This document shows, piece by piece, positions 15,288 to 36,181 of a stretch of 36,959 nt of DNA. The position numbers and the translations under genes are program-made. Each line of letters begins with the position of its first letter. The first letter of the stretch is position 1. The DNA is from Ignavibacteriales bacterium (GTDB lineage Bacteria; Bacteroidota; Ignavibacteria; Ignavibacteriales; Melioribacteraceae). The notes below the pieces were generated by a model. The model was given only the letters and a program-made list of their open reading frames with translations. It did no database searches and was not told the DNA's origin. The stretch covers positions 1 to 36,959 of the forward strand of contig JACOUS010000028.1 of NCBI GenBank assembly GCA_016177735.1, written 5' to 3'.

Positions 15288-15316
15288 GGTGTCAATTCAT
15301 AAAAGAACACTATAAT

Positions 15317-15735
15317 GATACGTGTTTATAAGCCGAATTCTGTTCCCCCGATTGAAATCAGGGGCGGCAGTTATTTATCTCGCCACAGCATTACTGCCAT
15401 GATCCAGCGGTCTACCCGAAAACAATGTCTGCTAAAAAAAAGCAGACAACCAAGACGAACAGCCTTGCCCCGATAAATCGGGATGCTTTCTGCTTGACCT
15501 TGCACCAGGTGTGGTTTGCCCAGCTTCCGATATTACTATCGGAACGGTGAGCTCTTACCTCGCCATTTCACCCTTACCCCGAATCAAATCGGAGCGGTAT
15601 TTTTTCTGTGGCACTTTCCGTAGCCTTGAACTTGCGTTACAACGCCCCCGGGCATTACCCGGCACCTTGTTCTGCGGAGTTCGGACTTTCCTCTATCCCT
15701 TCTAAATAGGGGGTAGCAACTGCCCAACACGTATC
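15317..15735 (-). ncRNA. rnpB: RNase P RNA, bacterial type A
   Basis: Reading the minus strand from 15735, the RNA starts GATACGTGTTGGGCAG and ends with AACACGTATC, which pair over 10 bp to close helix P1. The conserved core is present: GAGGAAAGTCCGAACTCC just inside the 5' end (CR I), GCCACAGAAA, the stretch GGTAAGGGTGAAATGGCG, AGAGCTCACCG, and near the 3' end GAATTCGGCTTATAAACACG, including the conserved purine-rich CR V partner of P4. The length, about 419 nt, is usual. This is the catalytic RNA that matures tRNA 5' ends. The exact ends are inferred from P1. Confidence 0.96.
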
Positions 15736-21212: not shown

Positions 21213-21360
21213 AACATAAACTGGGACTAAAGTCCAAAATTAATGGGTTTACACAATTGGCACGACCTTTAGGTCGTGCTACAATGTCTGTCTTATGCAA
21301 ATGGCTTTAGCCACTATTTAAGACAATTAGGCTAAAGCCCGAGTTATTGGGGGTATTCTT
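21213..21360. repeat. Dispersed palindromic repeat block, copy 2 (inverse)
   Basis: Hairpins in order: GGACT-AA-AGTCC (21224-21235), GCACGACCT-TT-AGGTCGTGC (21260-21279), TGGCT-TT-AGCCA (21302-21313) and GGCT-AA-AGCC (21330-21339), joined by 'atttaagacaatt'. The reverse complement follows the same order as 1-110. A further set of the same words is at 33253-33294. Confidence 0.75.
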
Positions 21361-21362
21361 TT

Positions 21363-21414
21363 CCCCGACATATCACCGCAAAGCGGAATTCCTTTTGCAC
21401 GGAAAATGCCGGGG
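21363..21414. repeat. 52-nt hairpin element, copy 1
   Basis: The outer stem is CCCCG (21363-21367) with CGGGG (21410-21414), followed inward by CAT/ATG, around a core with 'caccgcaaa' and 'tttgcacgg'. A 52-nt copy at 33317-33368 differs at five positions. Two of the differences, positions 3 and 50, compensate each other so the outer stem is kept (CCACG/CGTGG). Confidence 0.75.
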
Positions 21415-21446
21415 CAATTTAAAAAACAAAACTTGCGTAACTTATA

Positions 21447-33006: not shown

Positions 33007-33872
33007 CTATTCCCTCAAATATGTGTGCATATTTTGACGTGCAATATAACGAAAGTGTTTTTAAATGATGATGAACCGTCCGATTGAAAAATTTGCGGAC
33101 TATCAATCTTAATACGAAAACACAACGCCAATAGCAGAGACTACCCGGCGAGTCGTCTCAACAGCAACTACGCAACATTGAACTCATGTCAACATCTTAA
33201 CAAGATTAAGGTGAGAATAGTCCCGGCTTTTAAGTCGGGGCACAACACTTTAGGGCTTTAGCCCAAATTAAAAATTAATTTTGGACTAAAGTCCGGTATC
33301 CGGATGTTATTCATTTCCACGACATATCACCGCAAAACGGGATTCCGTTTGCACGGAAAATGCCGTGGCTATTTATTCTCTACTAGCTATCCCCACAAGA
33401 AAACCAATTGACAAAAAACCGAACTTGAATTAAATTGATTTCAAATTTTTGAAGCACTTTCACGGATGCCGTGAGCAGCATTCACGACAGAAGAAAAATT
33501 GATGAGGGCATTAATGATTTCTTCTTCCGTCGAACTGACCGTTTGCATTCCGCTGAAACACAAAACCAAAACACGAAAAAAATTTTTTGGAATAGATTTA
33601 ACAACTTGCTGCACGCATGTTTTGAAAACAGTTATGGGGGTAAAAAGTCCAACTGTATTTTATCCGAAATTGAGGCATTGAGACAATGCCCCCAATATGC
33701 CGATTATAATCTTACGTGCGAGAACTGTTATTTATTTTTTTGTCTCAACCCTGCTTGCAGCAGGCAAGTTCGGATAAAACACTTAACGTTAGCTTGCTTC
33801 TTTTTTAATGTACATTCCGGTTGAATAATTGATTAAATTTAGGACAAAGAATTATTATTTGAAGAAAATATT
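33007..33872. repeat. Large intergenic region with dispersed repeats
   Basis: This 866-base region holds CCCGGCTT-TT-AAGTCGGG (33222-33239, one G-T pair), GGGCT-TT-AGCCC (33253-33264) and GGACT-AA-AGTCC (33283-33294), which belong to the family at 1-110, then the second 52-nt hairpin element. From about 33470 to 33830 two overlapping open frames exist (the longest 117 aa, 33471-33824) but neither resembles a known protein. I do not call a gene. It forms the left border of the restriction-modification pair. Confidence 0.6.
33317..33368. repeat. 52-nt hairpin element, copy 2
   Basis: The same element as 21363-21414 with outer stem CCACG (33317-33321) and CGTGG (33364-33368). The inner part here pairs better: CAAA-(A)-CGG with CCGTTTG. 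Five substitutions separate the two copies and two of these keep the outer stem. Confidence 0.75.
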
Positions 33873-35258
33873 GTGACAAAAGCTGAAATATCTGAAATAA
33901 AAAATGGTAACAATGGTGAACTTGGTAAGTATCTGAATCCAACTAATGATACCAAAACACTATTTTTTACTTTAGATAAATTGGGAAGATTACCCGAAAA
34001 TTTTGATGGCAAATATTTCATTCCCCTTTGTAATCATCCAATTGAAAAGATCAGATTATTGGCAGTTAAAAACATAGGTAAATTATGTGATGAAAAATAT
34101 TTAAATCAATTAGAAAATATTTCTATTTCCGATGAGAGCACTATGGTTAGACGGGAAGCTATTTCTTCTATCGGGAGAATGCGAAATAAAAAGGCAATTC
34201 CTATTCTGATCAAAAGTTTGAAAGATCCTGACCCTAAAATTGTATTACAAGCAATTAGAGGTTTGTTAGTTTTTAATGAAGATGAAATGGTTATTTCAGA
34301 ATTAAAAAAATTAATTGATCATCCAAATGAAGTAATTAAAAACGTAATTGAAAAAGAATATTTTGACGAATCAAAATCAGAATACAATGGTGACCATTGT
34401 AAATCTCCAAATTATCTTAAAAACGTTGTTGTGAATGGTGATGTGCTTGAAATATTGAAGATCGTTCCTAATGAATCAATTCACCTTACTTTTACATCTC
34501 CACCTTATTATAATGCAAGAGATTATTCAATTTATCAAAGCTATGATGAATATTTAGAATTTTTGAGAGATGTTTTCAAAGAAGTTCATCGCATAACTAA
34601 AGAAGGAAGATTTTTTATATTAAATACTTCTCCAATAATTATTCCACGAGTTAGTCGTCAACATTCAAGCAAAAGATACCCAATACCATTTGACATACAT
34701 CCTTTTTTAATTGAAATGGGCTGGGAATTTATCGACGATATTGTTTGGGTAAAACCAGAATTCAGTGCAAAAGATCGCAATTCCAGTTTTCGTCAACACA
34801 GAAAACCATTAGCTTACAAACCCACGGCTGTAACAGAATATTTAATGGTATACCGCAAAAAGACACATAAATTAATTGATTGGAATATTAGGCAATACGA
34901 TTATAAAACTGTTCAAGAAAGTAAAGTTCTTGGTGAAGTTGACCAAATAAACACTTGGAATATTGACCCGACATTTGATAAAACGCATACAGCCGTTTTT
35001 CCAATGGAATTATGCCTACGAGTTTTAAAATATTATTCCTTCAAAAACGATTTAGTATTCGACCCGTTTGGTGGTAGCGGAACTTTTAGCAAAGCGGCTC
35101 AATCCCTTAACAGATACTTCTTCACAACCGAAATATCAAACAAATATTTTGAACGAATAAAAGAAAACATTGGTCAAAATGTTTTGTTTAATACTGAGTT
35201 TCCAAATAAATATTTTTCATTTCAAGAATTCTACAAAATTATTGAGGCTAACAAATGA
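33873..35258 (+). CDS. HEAT-repeat/DNA methyltransferase fusion (type II modification)
   Basis: A 461-aa protein. Residues about 48-165 are three to four HEAT repeats (NHPIEKIRLLAVKNIG, STMVRREAISSIGRMRNKKA, DPKIVLQAIRGLLVFN). Residues about 183-450 form a beta-class DNA amino-methyltransferase: catalytic SPPY at 209-212, then the SAM site FDPFGGSGTF at 396-405, with TAVFPMEL between. SPPY suits N4-cytosine methylation, though adenine is possible. The frame has no ATG before the core; the start at 33873 is GTG, without a strong ribosome site. The endonuclease gene overlaps it by 4 bases. The HEAT extension is unusual for a methylase and may bind DNA or the partner. AT-rich codons mark it as foreign compared with recJ. 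Confidence 0.85.
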   Translation: MTKAEISEIKNGNNGELGKYLNPTNDTKTLFFTLDKLGRLPENFDGKYFIPLCNHPIEKIRLLAVKNIGKLCDEKYLNQLENISISDESTMVRREAISSIGRMRNKKAIPILIKSLKDPDPKIVLQAIRGLLVFNEDEMVISELKKLIDHPNEVIKNVIEKEYFDESKSEYNGDHCKSPNYLKNVVVNGDVLEILKIVPNESIHLTFTSPPYYNARDYSIYQSYDEYLEFLRDVFKEVHRITKEGRFFILNTSPIIIPRVSRQHSSKRYPIPFDIHPFLIEMGWEFIDDIVWVKPEFSAKDRNSSFRQHRKPLAYKPTAVTEYLMVYRKKTHKLIDWNIRQYDYKTVQESKVLGEVDQINTWNIDPTFDKTHTAVFPMELCLRVLKYYSFKNDLVFDPFGGSGTFSKAAQSLNRYFFTTEISNKYFERIKENIGQNVLFNTEFPNKYFSFQEFYKIIEANK

Positions 35259-36181
35259 CGCTTACTGAACAAGTCGCAAAAAATATTATCAAAAAACTTT
35301 TGAAAGGTGAGGACTATCGTATTGAAATTGTAGCACTTATTAATGCTGATTTTCTGCAATATGCAATTGATTTCTTTAAAAAAATTGTTGAGGCAAAACT
35401 TAATAACCAAGACATTAATATTGATTGGTATAAAAAAGAATTCTTATCGAAAAGTTTACCAAAAGAAGAAATAGCTATACATTCTGGTTTAAACCAAAAA
35501 ACGATCAAGAATATGTATAATTCCGAAACTAGGGAAATTGTAATTGACGCATCTTATCAACATTACGAACAACTGTATGAAGCTATTAAAAGTTTAGTAG
35601 ATAGTGAAAACGAATTTAATTTGAAACTTACAATTAAAATTAAAGCTGTCAGCGTAGAGCTTAATATTGGAGAAAGTCTGATTGTTATAAATACACTTGC
35701 TGTCAAACGTGCAGCCTTGCGAGGGGGCTATTGGAGCACAGCCGGAAAACGTGTAGAGAAACCTTTGATGCAAACTTTATGCAAGTTATATGGTGTACCA
35801 CAATCAAATTATTTACTTAAGCTTAAAAGTAAAAAGAAAAAAGTGGAATTTGATTTCGAAAGAGAAATAGATTTCTACTTAGTGGACGATTCAAAGAATT
35901 ATAAATGTGAAGTCAAGTTGATGGGGATTGGTAATCCCGAAAGTGCTGATGCAGTTATTGCTAGAGCCAGTGAAGTTTTTGTTGCGGATAAACTTTCAGA
36001 AACTAATAAAAATCAATTGAACAGTCTTAATGTTAACTGGGTAGAGCTTAGAAGCGAAAATGGTTATAAAAGATTTAAAACTATTCTTGAAAGTTTAAAT
36101 ATCCCATTCGATAAAGATGGAGATTATACAGAAGAGTCATTGAATGAAATATTTAATGAAGTTTTCCAAAACGCAAGCTAA
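35255..36181 (+). CDS. CfrBI-like type II restriction endonuclease
   Basis: A 308-aa protein starting at the ATGA overlap with the methyltransferase, the typical layout of a restriction-modification pair. The probable catalytic site is FEREIDFYLVDDSKNYKCEVK with D206 and E219-V-K221, a PD-(D/E)XK core, followed by GNPESADAVIARASEVFVADKL. I recognise this as like the CfrBI family, whose prototype cuts CCWWGG next to an N4-cytosine methylase; that assignment is from memory of the family and needs a profile search. The N-terminal 200 residues are helical and rich in Lys. Composition is AT-rich like its partner. Confidence 0.7.
   Translation: MTLTEQVAKNIIKKLLKGEDYRIEIVALINADFLQYAIDFFKKIVEAKLNNQDINIDWYKKEFLSKSLPKEEIAIHSGLNQKTIKNMYNSETREIVIDASYQHYEQLYEAIKSLVDSENEFNLKLTIKIKAVSVELNIGESLIVINTLAVKRAALRGGYWSTAGKRVEKPLMQTLCKLYGVPQSNYLLKLKSKKKKVEFDFEREIDFYLVDDSKNYKCEVKLMGIGNPESADAVIARASEVFVADKLSETNKNQLNSLNVNWVELRSENGYKRFKTILESLNIPFDKDGDYTEESLNEIFNEVFQNAS

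Follow-up and report, generated by a model that had tools for sequence, protein, structure and literature searches.

The 52-nt element found twice in the window (the whole stretch of DNA that was analysed, 36,959 nt of contig JACOUS010000028.1 from an Ignavibacteriales bacterium) is best explained, with a probability of about 0.6, as an elaborated, three-armed version of a small mobile DNA hairpin, probably spread by a single-strand transposase, rather than as a functional RNA. A simple hairpin with the tag AATTG and a stem of the type CCnCGAnnT, of the kind that flanks a transposase gene in this genome, would have had its TTTA tip swapped for an insert of ∼36 nt that forms two hairpins. The element would be one arm of a miniature non-autonomous REPIN-like unit. 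A solo HUH/Y1 transposase of the IS200/IS605 kind from the same genome would act on such units in trans, cutting them out and inserting them in the form of single-stranded DNA. As in IS200/IS605 and REP systems, TnpA would be expected to bind the single-stranded hairpin and to make its cut next to the tag (PMC6006769, PMC8266576). The branched form probably arose and multiplied in the lineage of this species. The window features are as follows (S1 is the branched fold described below).

21213-21446, no strand: intergenic array of 234 nt, flanked by genes for a histidine kinase and a GNAT protein
21224-21235, minus strand: small hairpin GGACTTTAGTCC (read on the minus strand)
21255-21279, plus strand: simple REP-like hairpin, tag AATTG followed by GCACGACC-TTTA-GGTCGTGC
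21302-21313, plus strand: small hairpin TGGCTTTAGCCA of the neighbouring pair
21330-21339, plus strand: small hairpin GGCTAAAGCC, partner of copy 1 and other REPIN-like arm
21363-21414, minus strand (tag strand): element copy 1, outer 9-bp stem of 21363-21371 with 21406-21414
21376-21386, minus strand: mini-hairpin 1 of copy 1 in the S1 fold
21389-21404, minus strand: mini-hairpin 2 of copy 1, with one mismatch in this copy
21415-21419, minus strand: tag CAATT of copy 1 (AATTG on the minus strand), the same tag as on simple forms
33222-33239, plus strand: REP-like hairpin CCCGGCT-TTTA-AGTCGGG with one G/T mismatch, identified by eye
33253-33264, plus strand: small hairpin GGGCTTTAGCCC near copy 2
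33283-33294, minus strand: small hairpin GGACTTTAGTCC (read on the minus strand), partner of copy 2
33317-33368, minus strand: element copy 2, then GCTATT (minus-strand foot AATAG)

The preliminary description had reported a hairpin in two copies of equal length with a compensatory change in the outer stem. The coordinates and the equal lengths are right, and the copies do differ at five sites (copy 1/copy 2): 3 (C/A), 21 (G/A), 25 (A/G), 31 (T/G), and 50 (G/T). Position 3 pairs with position 50 in the outer stem, where C-G becomes A-T, so the compensatory change is real. G21A in copy 2 breaks a pair in the first inner mini-hairpin, T31G gains a pair in the second, and position 25 is unpaired in the branched fold. 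The element is not a plain hairpin, and its copies are far more than two (at least 62). To call the exchanged pair direct evidence of selection for structure was an overstatement, because one compensatory pair in two related copies may be inherited or template-switched; template switching between palindrome arms can create compensatory pairs. Since such a pair is weak evidence alone, further copies were gathered.

In the 3.87-Mb genome of the window (G000, 44 contigs), a 72-nt query retrieved the second copy at E 4.3e-20 and 31 places at E ≤ 0.001, so the likeness of the two window copies is not due to chance. A sequence-only profile (R1), built from 30 copies without structure so that pairing was not favoured, gave at least 62 places at E ≤ 0.01, a minimum because scoring covered 150 of the 2129 first-look candidates. 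With a 29-nt core pattern that tolerated 3 mismatches at most, 58 copies were matched, and with the reversed pattern none. The copies are dispersed singly, in either orientation, across many contigs. According to mechanical ORF calls, 48 of the 62 lie clear of any kept ORF of at least 70 aa, one overlaps partially and 13 lie inside one; twelve of these 13 ORFs are shorter than 120 aa and were judged spurious, and one (at L010) is longer.

The profile search covered 58 genomes, and none of the 57 relatives carried a convincing copy. The sole match among them, at 23.7 bits in a congener (L096), was dismissed as chance; by eye, we infer that it is the start of an open frame resembling a HIT-family protein. 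Outside G000 no match was found in 164 genomes of the order or in 395 genomes sampled from the phylum, under stricter filters with fewer candidates scored that cut the count of G000 itself to 34 and 14, respectively, so that weak copies elsewhere could escape. Exact-pattern scans of genome-contig and viral-contig collections, from which records near the genome of the window may be absent, gave none. Matches to long-loop forms elsewhere (6, in 5 of the 57 relatives, vs. 10 for reversed-pattern controls) were as a set attributable to chance; one or two of the matches in G037 resemble hairpin inserts.

The branched structure S1 consists of an outer 9-bp stem, mini-hairpin 1 (CCGC-NNN-GCGG), and mini-hairpin 2 (TYCCG-TTTACA-CGGRA). 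The first 30 copies served to draw it; in them 92.0% of cells are paired and 18 cells are two-sided vs. 8.6 after shuffling. On 31 of the 32 later copies (27 distinct; L091, with a 3-nt insertion, was left out here and is included in the 62), 93.6% of cells are paired, with 29 two-sided cells vs. 12.1 in shuffles (0 of 500) and a covariation of 0.204 vs. 0.106 (0 of 500); slid versions of S1 pair at most 49% in these copies. Over all 62 copies (58 distinct), 92.8% of cells are paired, covariation is 0.229 vs. 0.111, and two-sided cells number 73 vs. 30.3 (0 of 500), although subfamily relatedness inflates such counts and cells are not independent events. The outer stem, which the preliminary description had seen preserved between its two copies, holds in the further ones, with 90.2% of its cells paired in the 58 distinct copies. 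The 3/50 pair (alignment columns 4/54) is C-G in 25, A-T in 17, G-T in 4, T-G in 2, G-C in 1, and unpaired in 9. The number of pairs with a two-sided change did not exceed that in shuffles, either in all 62 copies (6 vs. 6.2; 375 of 500) or in the 31 later ones (5 vs. 4.2; 158 of 500), nor did the number of pair types (23 vs. 22.0, 171 of 500, in all 62; 68 of 500 in the later copies). Mini-hairpin 1 had no two-sided change.

One long inner hairpin is an alternative fold that we retain as the less supported one (90.4% paired, 58 two-sided cells vs. 24.3, covariation 0.204). Because the outer stem is common to both folds, the inner pairs decide between them: pairs specific to the branched fold have 16 two-sided and 24 unpaired cells, compared with 1 and 49 for those specific to the long hairpin. 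An RNAalifold consensus of the first 30 copies chose the long-hairpin kind, with a covariation term of almost nil (-0.05). We concluded that the three-way junction is the better fold. The outer stems occur as sets (CCCCGACAT/ATGTCGGGG, CCACGAGAT/ATCTCGTGG, CCACGACTT/AAGTCGTGG, and CTCCGGCAT/ATGCCGGAG), and the inner sequence hardly varies outside two places, the first triloop and the pair of mini-hairpin 2 that changes with compensation. If the unaligned first column is disregarded, variability is highest in the columns of the co-changing pairs and of the first triloop. The structure is thus conserved well beyond the single pair noted at first. With 62 copies the case for selection on it is good yet partly confounded by subfamilies, and such selection is probable only, as arm-to-arm template switching or stem swapping between types could also alter stems.

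Read on its other strand, the element is AATTGCC-stem-insert-stem, the build of a REP-like hairpin (AATTGCC-stem-TTTA-stem) with ∼36 nt that form two mini-hairpins in place of the TTTA tip. Simple hairpins AATTGCCACNNNN-TTTA-NNNNGTGG (form AATTGCCACNNNNTTTANNNNGTGG) number 19 in G000, and the form occurs in 9 of the 58 genomes including G000, with no control matches in all 58. The simple hairpin AATTGCCACGAGATTTATCTCGTGG is present in G000 and the congener, and its exact tag and arms enclose the insert in 8 of 13 listed element copies. Given this shared build and the AATTGCCACGAGATTTATCTCGTGG tag and arms around the insert, the element reads as a simple hairpin whose TTTA tip was replaced. TTTA and its complement TAAA are the commonest loops of hairpins of at least 5 bp in the window (6 each vs. 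a mean of 0.53 per tetranucleotide). The outer stem is followed by CA in 50 of the 62 copies, CT in 7, and others in 5, which corresponds to a 5′ foot of TG or AG when the other strand is read, and the 5′-foot tag is conserved, AATTG being found on the simple forms too. The foot is AATTG or AATAG and does not match the canonical GT[AG]G tetranucleotide; we therefore use the term REP-like and not canonical GTAG REP. Foot and stem are linked within the element: a GCT end is found in 4 of the 7 copies with CTCC-type stems vs. 3 of the other 55 (p = 0.002).

The element is one arm of a REPIN-like inverted pair. A partner hairpin GGCTAAAGCC (1 mismatch allowed) lies within 60 nt of 45 of the 62 copies vs. 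1 of 241 control windows, at a median spacer of 22 nt. The layout is AATTGCC-element, ∼22 nt, and GGCTTTAGCC, often then a second AATT, and it repeats that around the tnpA gene of this genome (AATTGCC-hairpin ... small hairpin-GCAATT). Within two subfamilies (22 and 17 of the 45 copies with a partner), hairpin similarity was 0.842 vs. 0.545 for spacers, and 0.918 vs. 0.661; since shuffled spacers reached 0.49 and 0.582, real spacers are barely more alike. Near-random spacers suggest that any movement of whole units took place long ago, or that the hairpins were homogenised separately.

The latter bears on the alternative that survives best, an unlikely one in our view: that compensation came about by mutation and not by selection, through template switching and through stem swaps by recombination or gene conversion, in a decaying or passively homogenised repeat without present fold-dependent use. 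The element has the same stem types as extant simple forms, and the hairpins are alike beside near-random spacers, both as this explanation predicts. G-T and A-C mismatches are equally frequent (41 vs. 37, p = 0.73), as expected without strand-specific selection. However, the junction strand ATCA and the stems of the mini-hairpins are near-constant across outer-stem types, for which correction of the outer stem from arm to arm does not account, and mini-hairpin 1 keeps its stem despite a freely variable triloop.

The array at copy 1 offers a look at an insertion site. The histidine kinase and GNAT genes are also adjacent in two relatives, the congener G001 and, from another genus, G002, where the gaps (by eye) are ∼13 nt and ∼5 nt, respectively, vs. 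234 nt here, so the array is most simply a gain in this lineage; it is the one clean empty site among those looked at. The site of copy 2 was uninformative in this respect, as the congener carries different repeats there, and near it has a unit with CAGTGTGAAAATTG...TTTTCACACAG ends.

Several further features were observed around the arrays. Modules TTGCGTAACT and AGTTACGCAA, some within TAACTnnAGTTA palindromes, stand at array ends, e.g., at 21432-21442 of the window; they appear in 21 of the 62 copy maps, often outermost and inverted, as in the terminal repeats of some larger unit. At the window start (16-58) there is a further pair of hairpins with TTTA loops, TTGGGCTTTAGCCCAA and GTGGCTTTAGCCAC (other strand). 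Beside copy 2, the stretch 33873-36178 has an N6/N4 DNA methylase gene with a HEAT-repeat region preceding the methylase domain, and the next gene encodes a CfrBI-type restriction endonuclease. RNase P RNA of bacterial class A maps to 15313-15735 on the minus strand. In some copies (L074, L092, and L008), other array hairpins near the element also have two-hairpin tips, such as a GCGGTTT...AAACCGC stem enclosing TGGC-TTT-GCCA and TCCC-AAT-GGGA at L074; these repeats may have a general tendency to branch.

G000 has four Y1 tnpA genes, and element copies were found within 14 kb of none of them. The product of the gene at L032, the likely source of the acting transposase, is a 147-aa IS200/IS605-type TnpA (NF033573, 66.1 bits, cut-off 55) that stays below the model for REP-associated tyrosine transposases (NF047646, 30.1 bits, cut-off 80); the fourth gene, L034, passes the latter (98.6). 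ISHp608 TnpA provides the nearest solved structures to the L032 protein (E 2.6e-10). The L032 gene carries simple hairpins AATTGCCAC on both sides, and no TnpB-like ORF was seen in L032 among ORFs of at least 90 aa. Simple REPs of this kind also flank solo IS200/IS605-type tnpA genes in some relatives. Seven named records hold a relative of the transposase, the closest three being Ignavibacteria assemblies and the other four differently named. An apparent MITE insertion occupies L032:2173-2270, where a REP-like hairpin holds in its TTTA loop a 98-nt unit with inverted ends GAGGCTGTGTGA...TCACACAGCCTC, bordered by TTTA at either end; the unit seems to have entered at the tip of the hairpin.

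We compared 39 tnpA loci (30 of the 111 matches of one homologue search, all 7 of another, and 2 more genes of G000), among which L102 and L126, whose flanking hairpins are identical, probably represent the same locus. Perfect hairpins (at least 8 bp, 4-nt loops) lie within 250 nt of tnpA in 32 of the 39, on both sides in 21; the 7 loci that lack them include L031 of G000. The 19,292 bases within 250 nt contain 78 such hairpins, compared with 16 for the 73,647 bases more than 500 nt away and 0.65 for shuffled near flanks; a TTYA loop, in either direction, is present in 71 of the 78 near hairpins. The AATTG foot is found mainly beside tnpA of the closest relatives, and more distant genes have hairpins with other stems. 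In relatives, the CTCCG hairpins next to tnpA have the ending CTATT in L128 and L130 and lack it in L131, L104, and L105, and some CCACG hairpins there also end in CTAT (L125 and L127), so the link of foot and stem is loose beside tnpA genes.

The closest known counterparts are the REP and REPIN sequences of TnpAREP (RAYT), which are likewise short, mainly extragenic palindromes in tens of copies with a 5′-foot tag (PMC3733652, PMC6006769) and form inverted pairs; here, too, the simple form flanks a Y1 tnpA gene. They differ in the foot (GT[AG]G vs. AATTG/AATAG here), in the transposase, which scores as IS200-type and not REP-type here, and in the tip, which is here a two-hairpin insert making a three-way junction. 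The sections on Marinomonas REPMb describe a perfect stem and a TTTA loop whose T and A may pair, as here, but with a GTAG tag and TnpAREP, and no branched form (PMC8266576). Cleavage of a Marinomonas REP, the one studied REP with a TTTA loop, needs that loop, and the E. coli REP loop has a structural role only, according to the same source (PMC8266576). As the branched form has lost the TTTA loop, it may not be a normal substrate. GTAG-14 and GTAG-3 REPs also vary in their loops, and in some of them the inner region is self-complementary over as much as 27 bp; as described, these are extensions of one hairpin, in contrast to the two mini-hairpins side by side here (PMC3733652).

For the transposase, the nearest match is TnpAY1 subclass 1.2 as outlined by Quentin et al. 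(2018), which has the signature Y---Q--HH, is closest to IS200 TnpA, generally lacks typical terminal IS200 structures, and is known mostly from Cyanobacteria and Bacteroidetes (PMC6006769). The signature is present in 38 of the 39 loci (YINNQEEHH in the own copy), and the likeness to the subclass as outlined there is one of signature, closeness to IS200, and absence of a visible TnpB-like ORF at L032; the subclass is further marked by a specific conserved C-terminal domain and a shorter core. The strong flanking hairpins in 32 of 39 loci set these genes apart from that outline, if they are counted as terminal IS200 structures. A search of the open-access literature gave nothing on point for later work on subclass 1.2, tyrosine transposases of Ignavibacteria, or branched REPs.

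The preliminary description left the working form as RNA or single-stranded DNA, and the evidence narrows this towards DNA. That the copies are a transcribed RNA element dispersed among intergenic regions, acting as a terminator, an attenuator, or a stabiliser of 3′ ends, is improbable. The gene context appears to suit it, with 50 of the 62 copies between co-directional genes, 5 between divergent and 3 between convergent ones, and 4 unclassified, i.e., 50 of the 58 classifiable (approximate counts from mechanical ORFs without a genome baseline). The RNA-fold z values of the window copies (-1.8 and -2.8 on the plus strand; -2.9 and -4.7 on the minus strand) are in its favor as well, and mRNA stabilisation has been tied to REPs elsewhere (PMC5317091). 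However, the orientation among the 50 co-directional copies is unbiased (23 the same as the genes, 27 opposite) and convergent pairs are just 3, which argues against a terminator or a directional RNA. Selection on a transcript from one strand should give more G-U than A-C mismatches there; wobble is equal on both strands and neither shows a G-U excess, making transcript selection unlikely. DNA energy parameters prefer the branched fold in 48 of 58 copies (plus strand) and 49 of 58 (minus strand), compared with 21 and 33 of 58 for RNA parameters; the latter pick the long hairpin in 37 (plus) and 25 (minus), whereas covariation favors the branched fold. Rfam 15 at gathering score covers neither window copy, RNase P being the sole family in the window; matches in five loci were weak, below that score, and were rejected. 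Wobble symmetry, lack of orientation bias, DNA energies, and the transposase-linked REP-like features point towards DNA, probably single-stranded, as the working form. An attC-like site, on which a tyrosine recombinase would act in folded single-stranded form, is similar in principle, such sites being branched, folded single-stranded DNA with conserved unpaired bases, but is highly improbable for copies that occur singly on many contigs, in both orientations, and mostly beside the same partner hairpin.

If the element is a mobile DNA hairpin, what looked like a two-copy curiosity becomes a system, a solo IS200-type transposase together with candidate simple and branched hairpin substrates in one genome. 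Should TnpA accept the branched tip, the loop contacts needed in some studied REP systems would not be general; should it reject the tip, the question would be how the 62 copies originated. Subclass 1.2 transposases gain likely partner hairpins. A wider reading, tentative and on balance doubtful, is that IS200-like HUH transposases of subclass 1.2 drive a REP system of their own in Ignavibacteria, with an AATTG tag and TTTA-loop hairpins, and that in one species a branched hairpin became the mobile unit, keeping its junction sequence while the recognition stem changes with compensation. If true, this would provide a branched single-stranded DNA substrate for a Y1 transposase.
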